From Bacteroidia bacterium (lineage in GTDB: Bacteria > Bacteroidota > Bacteroidia > J057): a DNA stretch of 64,000 bases. A model generated the notes under the pieces. It saw only the letters and a program-made list of their open reading frames with translations, was not told where the DNA came from and searched no databases. Made by a program: the position numbers and the translations under genes. Positions 25,209 to 51,771 of this stretch are shown here, piece by piece. The stretch spans positions 62,001-126,000 of the forward strand of contig JAUIGE010000005.1 in assembly GCA_030430205.1 (NCBI GenBank), in the 5' to 3' direction. Each line of letters opens with the position of its first letter. Position 1 is the stretch's first letter.

Positions 25209-27125
25209 ATGAAACAAATTCATCTTTCAGAAACAAAGCTCAACCAACTTGCCACTGAAATAAGCAACCGCCTTTTTGAAAGTCATTACTTCAACCAGGA
25301 TGTTATCACCGGAGATGCGCTCAACAATTTTTGTGATCATGAGCAAATAAATAAATTTCTCCTCTTTCAGGTTTACCAGGTCTGGCAACTGCAGATCAGT
25401 CGATTTAAACATCCCTATTTTAATTTTGAGCAAGCTGAAGTCAACCAGCTGCTAGCCCAATTGCAAAACCTCCTTTCGCGCAATATTGCCATCAGGAAGG
25501 AAGATTTTAAGCCGCTTTTGTATAAAGCAGTTCTCAATAACCTGCGCTTGCTTACCAATCCGAGAGAGGCATTCCAGCAGTTTTTCTTTCAGAATCAGGA
25601 TAAGATTGCTCTGGAAATGTATGAAAAATACAGCCCTTTTTTTTCTGATTTTGACTTTTTGATAAATGGTATTCAACGCTATTATCAAAAAAACAGGATT
25701 CGGCAGGTAGAGAAGGATGTCTTTCTCTTAAAATTTGATCGGGCGATAGAGGTCTATAACCAAAAAAGTGAGCAAAGTGCCGATACATATCGTTCTTTAA
25801 GATTTTTGAAATTGACTGACAGACGGCTTGATGAGTTGGTCAGGGAAGATGAGGAAGAAACCGCTCTGCGAAAAGCCAGGGAAGAGGAAGAAGCTGAAAA
25901 GCAAAGGCTTTTGGAGTTGAAGAAAGAAGAAGAAGCCGCAAGACATGCAGAAGAAGAGAAACGTAAACAACAGGAATCTCTTCAGGCAGAAGAGGAGGAG
26001 CAGAAAAGAGTTCAAAAGAGTTTTTTCGATGAATTACCTTCAACTGGGAAGACCTTCATTGACCTGGAAGTAGACGATCCGGCTATCCCAAGTGAAATAA
26101 AACAAAGCACAGAGGAAAAAAAGGCAATCGAAACGATTGAGTCAAGTACGCCAAAGGCTGAGACTGTAAAGGATCAAATAAAGGAGGAAGAACCTTTCTG
26201 GAAGAAGTTACAGGGGCAGTCAGATGTGCTTCCTACACAAGCGGATCGCTTCAAAAAACCAGAAGCCGATGAAACTCCCGTTGAAACTCCCATTGAAACT
26301 CCCATTGAAGCTCCCGTTGAGGCACCCGTTGAGTCGGTTGAAGCTGTTGAGGAAGTCCGTGAAGAGCCTCATGTCACTTCTTTGATAGAGGAAGTCCAGG
26401 AAAATGCCCAGGAAACAGAAACTATTTTTAATAAGGTTTCTGACGAAAAGGAAAATCAAGTGGATACAAAGGCTTCCATCATGGATGTTGTAGGAAATAC
26501 AGATAATAAACCTACAAGCCTTGTCGATTTATTGAAAGCAAAGGGGGAGGAAAAAAGTGAAAGTTTGGAGGCGAGAGTCAGGAGTCGGGCAAGTGAGGAG
26601 GTAAAAGAGGAAGGAGAGGAGAAAGAGCCAAAAGTAGAGCCGAAAGTAGAATTGAAAGAGGAAAACAAAGCGGAGATAAATAAAGAAGAAGAAAAGCCTG
26701 CACCGCCTACACAAAGCACAGCTTCAGGCTCTCTTCTGGACAGGTTTCGTCAACAGACGAAAAAGGTAGATAAAAAATCTCCTTTGGCTTCCGCCAAAGT
26801 GGAAGAGCAAAGTCCGACAATTGCTGATAAATTGAAAGATCAGCAAATCCCGGCCTCAACTGAGCCGGAGAAAAAAACGGAAGCAAATACCCCAAAAGGG
26901 AAGGCCGCCAAGGCTGACGAGATTCCTATTCATAAGCAATACCGCTTTGTGCAAAAAGTGTTTGGGGGAAACAATGTCCGTTTTCGGATAATTGTTGACA
27001 AGATTAATAATGCCAGTAGCGGACAGGAAGTAGAAGAAATATTAGAAAAATACGTCTTTAGTAATTCAGATGTGAATCGTGAGGATGAAACTGTGAAGGA
27101 ATTTATTCGGCTTATGCGAGGGTAA
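25209..27125 (+). CDS. protein with disordered acidic middle and folded ends, function unknown
   Basis: 638 residues, no signal peptide or membrane helix, so cytoplasmic. Residues about 1-215 are helical and folded-looking (FLLFQVYQVWQLQISRF, REAFQQFFFQNQDK). About 215-280 is a charged Glu/Lys/Arg coiled coil. About 280-560 is Glu/Pro/Lys/Thr-rich and surely disordered, including a five-fold ETPV/ETPI/EAPV repeat. The last 65 residues form a small helical module (HKQYRFVQKVFGGNNVRFR, VKEFIRLMRG) that resembles the C-terminus of other long Bacteroidota hypotheticals. The layout suggests a scaffold or tether. It stands alone after the ribosomal protein terminator. Confidence 0.7.
   Translation: MKQIHLSETKLNQLATEISNRLFESHYFNQDVITGDALNNFCDHEQINKFLLFQVYQVWQLQISRFKHPYFNFEQAEVNQLLAQLQNLLSRNIAIRKEDFKPLLYKAVLNNLRLLTNPREAFQQFFFQNQDKIALEMYEKYSPFFSDFDFLINGIQRYYQKNRIRQVEKDVFLLKFDRAIEVYNQKSEQSADTYRSLRFLKLTDRRLDELVREDEEETALRKAREEEEAEKQRLLELKKEEEAARHAEEEKRKQQESLQAEEEEQKRVQKSFFDELPSTGKTFIDLEVDDPAIPSEIKQSTEEKKAIETIESSTPKAETVKDQIKEEEPFWKKLQGQSDVLPTQADRFKKPEADETPVETPIETPIEAPVEAPVESVEAVEEVREEPHVTSLIEEVQENAQETETIFNKVSDEKENQVDTKASIMDVVGNTDNKPTSLVDLLKAKGEEKSESLEARVRSRASEEVKEEGEEKEPKVEPKVELKEENKAEINKEEEKPAPPTQSTASGSLLDRFRQQTKKVDKKSPLASAKVEEQSPTIADKLKDQQIPASTEPEKKTEANTPKGKAAKADEIPIHKQYRFVQKVFGGNNVRFRIIVDKINNASSGQEVEEILEKYVFSNSDVNREDETVKEFIRLMRG
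26271..26330 (+). repeat. in-frame 12-bp tandem repeat (five units)
   Basis: Five consecutive 12-base units (GAAACTCCCGTT, GAAACTCCCATT twice, GAAGCTCCCGTT, GAGGCACCCGTT) code for ETPV, ETPI, ETPI, EAPV, EAPV. The unit length is a multiple of three, so copy changes would keep the frame. Located in the disordered linker of the host protein. Confidence 0.85.
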
Positions 27126-46795: not shown

Positions 46796-48307
46796 ATGAA
46801 AAGTAATTTATTTAAAATAGTGGTGGGCCTGGCTGTGATCTTATCAGCTTATGCCTGCACGGACTTCCTCGATGTCCCTGTCAATAACCAATTGTCGGTA
46901 GAGGAGTTTTATGCTACTGATGAGGATGCCAACCAGGCGATCCTGGCGACCTATGACATCCTGCAATGGCATGAGAACCCATGGGGTTGGGCTAGCCCTT
47001 ATCTCGTAAAGACCCTGCCTTCTGATGAAGGCCAGGCCGGTGGTGCCAATGCTGGTGACCAGCCTAACTATGTGGCCCTTGACCGCATGACTTTTGACGC
47101 TACCAATGGTCCCATCGCTGCTGCATGGGGCGTAAACTACTATGGTATCTACCGTGCCAATCTGGTGATCAACAATGTTGATCCAATTACAGATGTCAAA
47201 AGTAGAATCGTAGCTGAGGCTAAAGCCCTTCGGGCTTATTTCTACCTGGAGCTTGTGACCATGTTTGGTGACCTTCCTTTGATCCTGACGGAGCTTTCTC
47301 CCAGTGAGTACAACCAGGCAAGGGTACCTGCTTCTGAGGTATATGCACAAATCGAAAAGGATTTGAGCGAAGCCGCCAACGGTCTTCCTAATAAGAGTGA
47401 TTACGAAGATTTTGACAAATTCAGGATGTCAAAAGGGACCGCTCAGGCGCTTTTGGGAAAGGCCCATCTGTACCAGGAAGATTGGGGTGCAGCCTCAAGT
47501 GCTTTTGCTGATGTGATAAACTCTGGCGAGTATGACCTGGAGCCAAACTTTGGTACTGTATTTTCAGAAGAAGGTGAGCTGGGCATAGAGTCTCTTTTCG
47601 AGACTGTATATGTGACTACAGCTGGCTATGACTGGGGAGCCAATGGTTACCCATGGGGTACGGCTTCTGAGTCAAATATCCACATCCAGCTGATGGGTGC
47701 GCGTGAGGGGTCTTTTTCTGGCGTAGACTCACTCAACAATGGCTGGGGATTTAACTACCCTTCACAGAAATTGTGGGATGCATTTATAGATGCAGGTGAC
47801 TCCGTACGTCGCAAGCAAACCCTCATGTCTGAGGCTGAGTTTGTTGCTGCTGGTGGAGAAGCAAATGATCCTACTACCTTCGATTATGCTGGGTTTATCC
47901 GCAGAAAATATGGCGCTTACAGCACAGAGTCTGATCCCAGTGGAGTTTTCCAACTTAACTATGGCACCAACTGGCGTCTCCTCCGCTACGCGGATGTCCT
48001 TCTGATGGCTGCTGAAGCCAATTACAGAAACGGCAACGAAGGCGCTGCATTGACAGAGCTCAACAAAGTGCGCGAGCGCGCGGGCCTGGAGGATGTGAAT
48101 GCAAGCGGCAATGCCCTTTTTGATGCCATCGTGACAGAGCGTCAGCTTGAGTTGGCCATGGAAGGCCATCGCTATCTTGATTTGATCCGTTGGGGCATGG
48201 CTTCCACTGAACTGAGCAAATTTCAGACTGGAAAACATGAATTGTTCCCAATTCCTCAGAATGATCTTCTGACAGCTCCAAACATGACACAGAACCCTGG
48301 TTATTAA
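46796..48307 (+). CDS. SusD/RagB-family substrate-binding lipoprotein
   Basis: 503 residues. The lipoprotein signal peptide ends AYACTDFLDVP (Cys21), then the SusD helical fold with TPR-like units: YATDEDANQAILATYDIL, YRANLVINNVD, AKALRAYFYLELVTMFGDLPL and the C-terminal RYADVLLMAAEANYR, ELAMEGHRYLDLIRWG. It forms the lid of the SusC channel on the cell surface. Starts 26 bases after susC and ends 15 bases before a large RNA stem-loop. Confidence 0.97.
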   Translation: MKSNLFKIVVGLAVILSAYACTDFLDVPVNNQLSVEEFYATDEDANQAILATYDILQWHENPWGWASPYLVKTLPSDEGQAGGANAGDQPNYVALDRMTFDATNGPIAAAWGVNYYGIYRANLVINNVDPITDVKSRIVAEAKALRAYFYLELVTMFGDLPLILTELSPSEYNQARVPASEVYAQIEKDLSEAANGLPNKSDYEDFDKFRMSKGTAQALLGKAHLYQEDWGAASSAFADVINSGEYDLEPNFGTVFSEEGELGIESLFETVYVTTAGYDWGANGYPWGTASESNIHIQLMGAREGSFSGVDSLNNGWGFNYPSQKLWDAFIDAGDSVRRKQTLMSEAEFVAAGGEANDPTTFDYAGFIRRKYGAYSTESDPSGVFQLNYGTNWRLLRYADVLLMAAEANYRNGNEGAALTELNKVRERAGLEDVNASGNALFDAIVTERQLELAMEGHRYLDLIRWGMASTELSKFQTGKHELFPIPQNDLLTAPNMTQNPGY

Positions 48308-48322
48308 GTCTAAAATGATAAT

Positions 48323-48403
48323 AGAGTTTGAGTTTTTGTGCGAATTTTAGGACAAGTAGCAAGGTGCTACTCACAATACAACTCGTACTTAAACTCAAAC
48401 TCT
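48323..48403 (+). ncRNA. large conserved-looking RNA stem-loop between susD and the first FG-GAP gene
   Basis: AGAGTTTGAGTTT (48323-48335) pairs perfectly with AAACTCAAACTCT (48391-48403). After a 2x2 internal loop, 48338-48343 pairs with 48383-48388 (one wobble). Inside lies a second perfect hairpin GTAGCA-AGG-TGCTAC (48356-48370). The 3′ flank is CTTTAATTTC, only weakly U-rich. It could attenuate transcription into the FG-GAP genes, or protect the 3′ end of the susCD part of the message. No known RNA family recognised. Confidence 0.6.
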
Positions 48404-48420
48404 CTTTAATTTCTCTCCTC

Positions 48421-51400
48421 ATGAAAGCGCTTTTACTTTCTGCATGTAGCATACTGGCACTGTTCCTTACTTCCTGTCACCCCATTCCTGAGGAGACAGC
48501 CTCTCAGGCTTTATTCCAAAGTCTGACTCCGGCCCAAACCGGCATTGACTTCAACAATGAGTTGACGGTCACTGACAGCATCAATTTCTTTACCTACGGC
48601 TATTACTATATGGGCGGAGGTGTTGCGATAGGGGACTTTAACCAGGATGGCTTACAGGATGTGTATTTCACTGGAAATATGGTTTCCAATAAGCTTTATT
48701 TGAATATAGGAGAGCTGAAATTTAAAGATGTCACACAAGATGCCGGAGTAGGAGCGGACGACCGCTGGATTACGGGCTGCGCGGTAGTTGATATCAATGC
48801 AGATGGCAAGGATGATATTTATGTATCCGTTGCGGGGAAGTGGGCGAGTAGAAAAAACATTCTCTATATCAATAAAGGGAATGATGAAAATGGAATTCCC
48901 AAATTTGAAGATCAGGCAGAGAAATATGGCCTTGCAGATGCAGGCGGCAGTATTCAAACTGCCTTTTTGGATTATGATCAGGATGGAGATTTGGATGTTT
49001 TTGTAGCCAATTATGAGGTTACCCCTTTCTTTTACACTTCAACAGAATTCAAAAAACTAATTGACAATGTCACCTGGGAGCAGTCTGATCATTTGTACAG
49101 AAATAATGGTGATCAGACATTCACTGATGTGACAGAGGAAGCAGGTTTGCTTCACTTTGGCCTTTCTATAGGCGTTATTTGCAATGACTTCAACAATGAT
49201 GGATTTACCGACCTCTATGTATCCAATGATTTTGAAAGTCCTGATTATTTCTATTTGAATAATGGCGATGGCACTTTTAAAGAAATCAGCCAGCAAAGCC
49301 TGCAACACACCGCCTTCTACGGTATGGGCATAGATGCCGCCGATTATAACAATGACGGCAACATGGATTTCATCCAATTGGACATGGCTGCCGCCGATAA
49401 TTTTCGCTCCAAAGCCAATATGGCAAGCATGGATATCCCCCGTTTCTGGAGGATGGTAGATTATGGCTTTCACTACCAATACATGTACAATGCCCTGCAA
49501 ACATCCCAGGGCGTCAGAAAAGATGGAACCCCTTTTTATGCTGAAACAGCCAAGCTTTCCGGTCTGGATAAAACCGATTGGAGCTGGGCATGCCTTTTTG
49601 CCGATTATGATAACGATGGCTTCAAAGACCTTTATATCACCAACGGCACCCGCCGGGATATCAACAACAAAGATTATTTTAAATGGCTGGAGCGGGTCGA
49701 TGTGAGCCTGAAAGTGAAATATAAAAAACTCACCATGCAGGAACTGACCGAGCGTATGCCTTTTAAAAAATTGGATAACCCGATTTTTAAAAACGATCGG
49801 GGACAAAAATTTATCCAGTCAAATAATGATTGGGACATGCATTATGAAGGCTTTTCCAATGGGGCGGCCTATGCAGATCTGGACAATGATGGGGATTTGG
49901 AACTGATTGTCAATAATATAGATACCACGGCTGCGATTTTTAAAAACCTCTCTACCGAGCACAAAAAGAACAATTATTTACAAATTCAGCTTCTGGGCCC
50001 TCTGACTAATCCCCATGGGTTGGGAGCCAGAGTTGAGCTGGAAAATCAAGGTGTCACCCAGTATCAGGAGCATAGTCTGGTGAGAGGATATCAATCCTCT
50101 GTGGAGTCGCTTATTCATTTTGGTCTGGGTGCTAGCCAGCAGGTCGAGAGCCTGCTTGTCATCTGGCCTGACGGCAAGGTGCAGCAGTTGAATGATATTC
50201 CTGCCAATCAGCGCATCCAGCTGAGGTATGAGGATGCACGTGTCAGAAAACCTGTTGAAATGACCCAAAAGCCTGTTTTTAGCCCGGCCGACTCAGCTCT
50301 CGGTCTTTCTTTTTTCCACCACGAAAATGCCTACAATGACTTTGAAAGGGAAGTACTCCTGCCCCACAAAATGTCCGCCTTTGGTCCGGCTCTCGCTACC
50401 GGAGATGTCAATGGAGATGGACAGGAGGATGTTTTTGTTGGGGGTGCGAAAGGCCAGAAGGCTTGCCTGTTTCTCAGCGATGTGGAATCCGGCCAATTTG
50501 AAAAGGATTTTTCGATAGGAGACGAGGCCTATGAGGACACAGATGCCCTGTTTTTTGATGCAGATGGCGATGGTGATCTGGATTTGTATATTGTTTCCGG
50601 AGGAAATGAGGAAGAAGCGGGACACAGATATTATGCGGATCGCATATTTGAGAATGACGGCAAAGGCCGCTTTAGCCTGCTAAGCGATGCGCTTCCCCTT
50701 TCTGCCCATAGCGGCAGTGTTGTTATCCATGCGGATTATGACGGCGATGGGGATGCCGATCTATTTGTCGGAAGCAGACAGGTACCTGGCCTCTATCCCA
50801 GTCCGCCTTCCAGCATGTTGCTGGAAAATATCAGCGGCCCCTCAGGCATCCGCTTTCGCGATGTGACAGATACGCAAGCGCCTGATTTACAGGCCTTAGG
50901 AATGGTGACGGATGCCCTTTGGGATGATTATGATGGAGATAATGATCTCGATCTGCTGATCGTAGGAGAGTGGATGCCCATCAGCCTGCTTGAGAATACA
51001 GGCCAGCGGTTTCACCTCAGGCAAAATGAAGCTTTCGTTCAAACCACCGGATGGTGGAATACCATCACCAAAGCTGATTTTGATCAGGATGGAGACATGG
51101 ACTATATCGCAGGCAATCTTGGCCTGAATTACAAATACAAAGCTTCAGCTGAAGCTTCTTTTGATGTGTATGCCGGTGATTTTGATGATAATGGAAAACA
51201 GGACATCGTCCTGGGATATTACCAGGATGGCATCCAGTTTCCGGTTCGGGGTAAGCAATGTTCATCTGAACAAATGCCCGATCTGAAAAAGAAATTTAAA
51301 AATTACGATGCCTTTGCCAGCGCTGAGCTGAAGGAAATCTACACGCCCTCCAAACTGGAAAATGGCCTTCACTATCAGGCCCGGGAGTTTGGACATATCT

Positions 51401-51771
51401 ATATTGAGAATCTGGGAAATGGCGCTTTTTCCTATAAACGGATGCCCATAGGGACCCAGATATCTTCCGTCAATGCCCTCCAGGTGCTGGATTACAACCA
51501 GGATGGAAACCTGGACATCCTGATGGCAGGGAATTTATTTCAGTCAGAAGTGGAAACGCCCCGGGCTGATGCCTGCTATGGCTGGCTCCTGGAAGGGGAT
51601 GGAAAAGGTGATTTCAGGCAACTGCCCTACGAAGTATCCGGATTGGATATTCCCTATCAGACACAAGCGGTCAGCCTGATAAACATCAGGAATCAAAGCC
51701 TGCTGATTTTTGCAAATAATAATGCACCTTTATCCATCTTTTACCTGCATATTCCATCAAATCCTCTCTAA
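48421..51771 (+). CDS. FG-GAP/VCBS-repeat lipoprotein with ASPIC/UnbV domain (CRTAC1-like)
   Basis: 1116 residues from the ATG at 48421, which begins the lipoprotein signal peptide ending FLTSC (Cys17); the longer frame from 48328 overlaps the RNA stem-loop. About 14 calcium-binding FG-GAP motifs of the form D.N.DG..D.. or DYDGDGD.DL are visible (DFNQDGLQDVYF, DYDQDGDLDVFV, DADGDGDLDLYI and so on) in two blocks, about 60-440 and 645-1090. Between them an ASPIC/UnbV domain (about 525-585: GLGARVELENQGVTQYQE, ESLLVIWPDGKVQQL). A surface-exposed propeller protein, likely helping glycan capture with SusCD; role inferred. Confidence 0.92.
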   Translation: MKALLLSACSILALFLTSCHPIPEETASQALFQSLTPAQTGIDFNNELTVTDSINFFTYGYYYMGGGVAIGDFNQDGLQDVYFTGNMVSNKLYLNIGELKFKDVTQDAGVGADDRWITGCAVVDINADGKDDIYVSVAGKWASRKNILYINKGNDENGIPKFEDQAEKYGLADAGGSIQTAFLDYDQDGDLDVFVANYEVTPFFYTSTEFKKLIDNVTWEQSDHLYRNNGDQTFTDVTEEAGLLHFGLSIGVICNDFNNDGFTDLYVSNDFESPDYFYLNNGDGTFKEISQQSLQHTAFYGMGIDAADYNNDGNMDFIQLDMAAADNFRSKANMASMDIPRFWRMVDYGFHYQYMYNALQTSQGVRKDGTPFYAETAKLSGLDKTDWSWACLFADYDNDGFKDLYITNGTRRDINNKDYFKWLERVDVSLKVKYKKLTMQELTERMPFKKLDNPIFKNDRGQKFIQSNNDWDMHYEGFSNGAAYADLDNDGDLELIVNNIDTTAAIFKNLSTEHKKNNYLQIQLLGPLTNPHGLGARVELENQGVTQYQEHSLVRGYQSSVESLIHFGLGASQQVESLLVIWPDGKVQQLNDIPANQRIQLRYEDARVRKPVEMTQKPVFSPADSALGLSFFHHENAYNDFEREVLLPHKMSAFGPALATGDVNGDGQEDVFVGGAKGQKACLFLSDVESGQFEKDFSIGDEAYEDTDALFFDADGDGDLDLYIVSGGNEEEAGHRYYADRIFENDGKGRFSLLSDALPLSAHSGSVVIHADYDGDGDADLFVGSRQVPGLYPSPPSSMLLENISGPSGIRFRDVTDTQAPDLQALGMVTDALWDDYDGDNDLDLLIVGEWMPISLLENTGQRFHLRQNEAFVQTTGWWNTITKADFDQDGDMDYIAGNLGLNYKYKASAEASFDVYAGDFDDNGKQDIVLGYYQDGIQFPVRGKQCSSEQMPDLKKKFKNYDAFASAELKEIYTPSKLENGLHYQAREFGHIYIENLGNGAFSYKRMPIGTQISSVNALQVLDYNQDGNLDILMAGNLFQSEVETPRADACYGWLLEGDGKGDFRQLPYEVSGLDIPYQTQAVSLINIRNQSLLIFANNNAPLSIFYLHIPSNPL

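Follow-up and report, generated by a model that had tools for sequence, protein, structure and literature searches.

The hairpin described here lies in the window (the whole stretch of DNA that was analysed, 64,000 nucleotides long), on whose plus strand a SusC-type TonB receptor, SusD, two FG-GAP/UnbV_ASPIC proteins and a large hybrid two-component regulator are encoded in that order. The names of the first four genes rest on Pfam, which returned a TonB-dependent receptor (SusC type), SusD_RagB and two FG-GAP_3 plus UnbV_ASPIC proteins and so agrees with the names given in the first-pass annotation; the regulator was named by eye from its translation. The product of the FG-GAP/UnbV_ASPIC gene that follows susD carries an LTSC lipobox (by eye). 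The susD stop codon ends at 48307 and the lipoprotein ATG, at 48421, lies only 17 nt past the 13-bp stem of the hairpin (Table 1). The Bacteroidota -7 box has the form TAnnTTTG, and no exact match to this motif was found within the 113-nt gap between the two genes. Elsewhere in the window, the top-scoring tandem array is a 12-bp repeat, CCGTTGAAACTC, present in 5.6 copies at 26266-26332.

Sequence and RNAfold place the hairpin at exactly the coordinates first assigned to it, and most of its described architecture was reproduced: the outer stem is a perfect 13 bp (48323-48335 with 48391-48403), followed by a 2x2 internal loop (TT/TT) and a further 6 bp (48338-48343 with 48383-48388), one pair of which is G.U. 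Two 2-bp steps then lead to the inner stem; the outer 13 bp of this copy are perfect, the inner parts are not. The innermost hairpin is present as described, but is 7 bp long with an AGG triloop (48355-48361 / 48365-48371) rather than 6 bp. The 81 bases that had been taken for the intergenic gap are the length of the hairpin itself, which begins 15 nt after the susD stop and takes up most of the gap. The fold of 48310-48420 has a predicted energy of -34.2 kcal/mol; 200 dinucleotide shuffles averaged -15.8 (sd 2.8), giving a z of -6.5, and none of the 200 was as stable. The opposite strand folds equally well (-33.8 kcal/mol). The U-tract behind the stem is weak, as had been noted, with 5 T among its first 8 positions; the hairpin was not listed by a consensus terminator scan, and an Rfam search brought no family near its gathering score, the best reaching 16.4 bits where 48 are needed.

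Table 1. Features of the interval between susD and the adjacent lipoprotein gene (window coordinates).
Feature	Position	Strand	Basis or remark
susD, 503 aa	46796..48307	+	Upstream of the hairpin; Pfam SusD_RagB 7e-39
Gap between susD and the FG-GAP lipoprotein gene, 113 nt	48308..48420	+	Sequence, gene ends
Left arm, member of the hexamer-array family, G-rich strand on +	48320..48359	+	Model R1, 29.3 bits, E 4.2e-6; arm in training set
Hairpin: 13-bp outer stem, 2x2 loop, 6 bp, 7-bp inner stem, AGG triloop	48323..48403	+	RNAfold; inverted-repeat detection
Right arm, same hexamer-array family, G-rich strand on -	48368..48407	-	Model R1, 30.0 bits, E 2.5e-6; arm in training set
Weak U-tract CTTTAATTTC after the stem	48404..48415	+	Sequence; 5 T in first 8, interrupted
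FG-GAP/UnbV_ASPIC lipoprotein gene	48421..51771	+	Pfam FG-GAP_3 9e-71, UnbV_ASPIC 5e-23

The hairpin is best explained as one two-armed copy of a dispersed, genus-limited family whose arms are degenerate short tandem repeats, in this case hexamers. When a 111-nt query was compared by BLASTN with its own genome (G000; 7.24 Mb, 80 contigs), 66 matches at E<=10 were obtained, its own two included; most correspond to one hairpin arm or its mirror image, and the right arm has partners elsewhere in the genome. From 22 loci, 27 arms could be aligned to the consensus AGTTTGAGTTTGAGTACGAGTTTnAGTACGAG, a degenerate hexamer array of fixed polarity, and both window arms align with this family. R1, a sequence-only model built from the 27 arms (which therefore match it by construction), found at least 64 matches in the genome at E<=1 and at least 53 at E<=0.01, the latter grouped into at least 44 loci; these counts are lower bounds, as 150 of 2204 first-look candidates (E<=1) or 150 of 2058 (E<=0.01) were scored. 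Two arms are present at 8 of the 44 loci (scored by hand), and single arms are common. When R1 was applied to 40 genomes, own included, the one same-genus relative, G001, yielded at least 42 matches at E<=0.01; the 38 others together gave at least 7 marginal ones, near chance, with one to three each in four genomes (best E 0.0015). Arms belonging to the same element did not co-vary: across seven two-armed elements the resemblance between arms was 0.72 within elements versus 0.71 between them, and 1818 of 5040 arm pairings were as good.

The family prefers gene 3' ends. By home-made, unreviewed gene calls, obtained with a codon model that had been trained on the sample, 22 of the 44 loci lie in co-directional gaps, 11 in convergent gaps and none in a divergent gap, with 8 inside ORFs and 3 unclear. 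Background gaps of at least 40 bp in 400 kb (n=194) comprised 129 co-directional, 17 convergent and 48 divergent cases; for the 33 loci in gaps with both neighbours called, this amounts to an excess of convergent (p 4.6e-4) and a deficit of divergent gaps (p 3.2e-4). Cruder, earlier gene calls pointed in the same direction (14 convergent, 16 co-directional, 2 divergent, 10 inside ORFs, 2 unclear; convergent p 1e-4). Because only 8 of the 44 loci were scored as two-armed and 8 lie inside ORFs, members of the family need not, as such, be terminators. Nor did the transcript strand of the host gene prove to be the better-folding one: among 50 elements, 32 of them scorable, it folded better in 11 and worse in 21 (Wilcoxon p 0.09, in the wrong direction).

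Within ORFs, some arrays are read as in-frame linkers, for example SLSLSTSKSTS in an SNF2-helicase-like protein and TQTQTQTQTP in a dihydrolipoyl-acyltransferase-like protein (both named by eye); in-frame low-complexity hexamer arrays (TQ and SLST repeats) were seen at L032:953-2314 and L010:3-1721. Four relatives were searched for the acyltransferase-like protein, and the three orthologues that were read (G001, G003 and G007) have ordinary Ala/Pro-type linkers without the array; the TQ array therefore seems to have been gained or expanded in G000.

In G001, 20 loci (L096-L115) were inspected, 15 of which contain a run of at least three AAGTTC; these are arranged as (AAGTTC)n, AAG, about 7 nt and then TTTGAG-like hexamers, and the remaining five carry mainly TTTGAG runs. 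AAGTTC and TTTGAG pair as RNA through two G.U per hexamer, and on one strand only. The G.U-pairing strand was tried as the transcript strand and rejected, being better in 4 and worse in 8 of the 12 scorable cases among the 20 loci. Since the transcript shows no preference for the pairing strand, selection on mRNA does not account for the wobble; it would result if transitions were retained in single-stranded DNA as G.T pairs. A comparison of the flanks of 40 G000 and 20 G001 loci produced one protein match (71% over 45 residues), and no shared insertion site was shown among them.

Long hairpins were then classed as repeat-armed if their pairing score was at least 36 and both arms were periodic at 5-12 nt. 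By this rule 12 of 35 long hairpins are repeat-armed in 464 kb of G000 (the window plus 400 kb), as are 10 of 27 in 200 kb of G001; the small samples from two other genera held none (0 of 2 in 100 kb of G003, 0 of 5 in 100 kb of G005). Shuffling the samples of G000, G001, G003 and G005 once in 3-base blocks left 5, 3, 1 and 2 long hairpins, respectively, none of them repeat-armed. The repeated words are other 7-8-mers and vary, with GGGTTTC-like and GAGAGAA-like heptamers in G000 and GGTTCTA- and GGTTAAT-like heptamers in G001. The window hairpin was not flagged by the periodicity rule, although both its arms align with the hexamer family. On crude ORF calls, 15 of the 22 repeat-armed hairpins of the two genomes have their start or end no more than 15 nt from a called gene end; of the 12 in G000, 3 were placed inside ORFs and 1 in a divergent gap. 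Heptamer-armed long hairpins in G000 (GGGTTTC-like, GAGAGAA-like) are found at L050:8485-8628, L059:9032-9121 and L062:8174-8390. A further dispersed hairpin family, of the type GACGCAGATT...ATTATGATT, was seen by eye at five places in 400 kb (L060:3874, 11440, 12597 and 13483; L049:2981).

The same gap was then examined in relatives. A search of contigs with SusD led to eight loci, seven of which were compared (61-77% identity, with a co-directional FG-GAP-type gene next, as judged by eye from its first residues); they include, by record title, four Saprospiraceae, one Sphingobacteriales and one Chitinophagales, and it is on its SusD relatives that a placement of the present organism near Saprospiraceae is based. 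The eighth (L075; Bacteroidales, 25% identity, another downstream gene) was left out, and L117-L121 and L123 (39-42% identity) and the own-genome paralogue L122 (42%) were not used. In all seven relatives the gap holds a hairpin unrelated to R1, in sequence that differs from that of the window; the R1 arm model had no match at E<=1 in any of the seven gaps. When a stem followed by at least 4 T in 8 was scored against 40 mononucleotide shuffles, none of the 40 was as good for the window (its gap counted one base too long), L070 and L071, nor for L069 and L072, in which the best stem of the script differs from that chosen by eye; for L068, L073 and L074, 1 of 40 was as good in each case. By eye, an ordinary intrinsic terminator, a stem with a U-run, is present in five of the seven (L068, L069, L070, L071 and L074), a duplicated stem with a pyrimidine-rich tail in L072 (where the called start is internal and the true gap <480), and a stem with a weak tail in L073. 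The terminators of L070 and L071 end 9 and 15 nt, respectively, ahead of the called ATG that follows, a spacing similar to that in the window, so that in these relatives as well transcription of the next gene would depend on read-through or on a promoter located within the terminator or upstream of it.

Two further genes, chosen rather than drawn at random and named by eye, were followed across relatives in the same manner; the orthology and the by-eye terminator readings are unreviewed. Behind a phosphomannomutase-like gene, a hexamer element follows the stop by no more than 3 nt in G000 (L012), the G001 orthologue (85% identical) has a different repeat-rich hairpin directly after its stop (L156, by eye), and the homologues in G005 (72%), G007 (69%) and G003 (46%) have canonical terminators by eye (L157, L158 and L159). 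On the 3' side of an FtcD-like gene there is a hexamer arm in G000 (L042), a long hairpin in G001 (L168) and a canonical terminator in G003 (L169), the relatives again being read by eye.

It had been suggested that the hairpin sets the ratio of SusCD to the accessory lipoproteins, or is bound by a small RNA or protein. The hairpins in all seven relatives speak for a switch point between susCD and the lipoprotein gene; a specific, conserved structured RNA is not supported, the window's sequence having no match to the arm model at E<=1 in those gaps, which leaves no alignment for a covariation comparison there. Partial termination setting the susCD:lipoprotein ratio is plausible, given the hairpin in every homologous gap and the terminators of L070 and L071 just before the ATG. 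On balance we lean towards the view that a lineage-specific repeat hairpin took over the place of a partial terminator or mRNA 3'-end barrier of susCD. Acting behind susD, it would serve as a partial transcription terminator, as a block to 3' exonucleases, or as both; the susCD transcript would be left with a protected 3' end, and some polymerases would read on into the FG-GAP lipoprotein gene, for which the few bases behind the hairpin are too short to hold a separate promoter. The family itself probably arises or spreads at the DNA level, by repeat expansion, template switching or transposition, and its ability to stand in for a terminator may be the reason that 3' ends tolerate or retain it. 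Position and replacement in relatives point to a terminator or 3'-end guard, and the repeat nature of the arms to a birth at the DNA level. For the role at this locus, position and replacement have to be set against the absence of co-variation and of strand preference, the weak U-tract and the single arms, which is why we hold it with restraint.

The same considerations give some weight, if a smaller probability, to a neutral origin, in which a selfish or slippage-born DNA palindrome piles up after stop codons, where insertion harms least, and has no part in susCD expression. That the family is missing from divergent gaps and occurs in protein linkers would then be a sign of tolerance, and a transcript strand that is not the better-folding one, arms without co-variation and the frequency of single arms would all be expected. 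Against a neutral palindrome speak the seven of seven relatives that keep a hairpin in the same gap by means of unrelated sequences, and a window copy whose outer 13 bp are perfect while its inner parts are not; in addition, convergent gaps are enriched as well as divergent ones avoided.

Rho loading sites are C-rich and G-poor, with regularly spaced YC dinucleotides. The C-rich arm might accordingly be such a site, with the G-rich arm or the hairpin shaping the 3' end, in both directions between convergent genes; we regard this as improbable. The G-rich arm is the 5' arm in 12 of 12 repeat-armed hairpins in G000 and 8 of 10 in G001, so that the C-rich arm comes last on either strand, and single arms in co-directional gaps present the C-rich arm to the mRNA 12 times and the G-rich arm 5 times. 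That bias is not significant, however (p 0.14; 17 to 8, p 0.11, with coding cases added), and other long hairpins lean likewise (16 to 7 in G000, 11 to 5 in G001), so that repeat arms are not set apart by this polarity; once the hairpin has closed, moreover, its C-rich arm is base-paired and out of reach of Rho. Least probable of all, and disfavoured, is a specific regulatory RNA controlling the lipoprotein gene (a protein or small-RNA site, or a riboswitch-like switch), for which a large, stable structure near the next start codon would speak, but against which stand the differing gap sequences and missing arm matches at the seven homologous loci, the lack of an Rfam match and the occurrence of the family at about 44 loci beside different genes.

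Taken beyond this locus, a terminator or 3'-end guard might be one case of a genus-wide pattern, which we put forward tentatively and consider rather unlikely as a whole: tandem-repeat hairpins at gene 3' ends would be interchangeable, their words differing by locus and species, and would replace intrinsic terminators as two-way terminators or 3'-end guards, being generated at the DNA level by a process whose products are inverted 6-8-mer arrays.

Like an intrinsic terminator, the window hairpin is a stable structure behind a stop codon, and the same gap in relatives has a hairpin in seven of seven and a terminator by eye in five of seven; unlike one, it has a long, AT-rich, repeat-built stem, a weak U-tract and equal folding on both strands. 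Termination that relies less on a U-run has been argued for clusters of hairpins (PMC8355165). REP elements are dispersed palindromes, found mostly between convergent and co-directional ORFs and in some cases inside genes, with a GTAG or CGTC tetranucleotide at one end (PMC3733652). The hexamer family resembles REP and RAYT/TIRYT-linked repeats in being dispersed, 3'-end-biased and sometimes intragenic, and in that G000 has Y1 transposase genes (PMC3733652); REP-like dispersal is seen in 33 of 44 loci lying in gaps and 8 in ORFs (3 unclear), but only 8 of 44 are two-armed. It differs in that its arms run for about 30-40 nt as tandem hexamers and have no end tag in common: in the 27 arms with their flanks, GTAG/CTAC occurs anywhere in 4 and CGTC/GACG in 1. 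Of the three Y1_Tnp genes in G000 one, a small IS200-like gene (L019:2034-2576, at about 419 kb of contig C20), has a family element on either side (C20:418334 and C20:421494), at distances of 0.8 and 2.1 kb and with other genes between. This is the one locus suggestive of mobilisation by a RAYT; R1 had no arm match in the 12 Y1_Tnp loci scanned.

Closer in the make-up of its stem is P6b of the cyanobacterial (Nostoc) trnL intron, which is built on degenerate 7-nt repeats, two classes of which interchange while the structure stays similar; P6b, however, lies inside a group I intron and is not a dispersed gene-3'-end element (PMC4476775). TAACTGA heptamer arrays of Beggiatoaceae, Cyanobacteria and some Bacteroidetes are likewise dispersed short tandem repeats in gaps, some after stop codons and some in ORFs, but lie mostly upstream of start codons, with one indirect repeat only in the main genome described (PMC4679880). 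The tandem repeats of Borgs are also found in gaps, as well as within ORFs, where they are in frame and encode disordered regions, and some are predicted to form hairpins; unlike the present family they are perfect repeats of archaeal extrachromosomal elements, not defined by inverted arms (PMC9879509). Among the papers listed in searches of the open-licence literature, none was recognised as describing hairpins at gene 3' ends whose inverted arms are arrays of varying 6-8-mers.

Programs that recognise terminators by a short, GC-rich stem and a U-run may overlook 3' ends of this kind (the consensus scan did not list the susD hairpin), and searches for covariation fail where non-homologous replacement keeps a function. 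If the proposed role holds, the susD hairpin would adjust the amount of FG-GAP lipoprotein per SusCD complex; transcription ends in this lineage would be kept as structures while their sequence is swapped for expanding repeats, which would be a fast route for repeat DNA to become regulatory.
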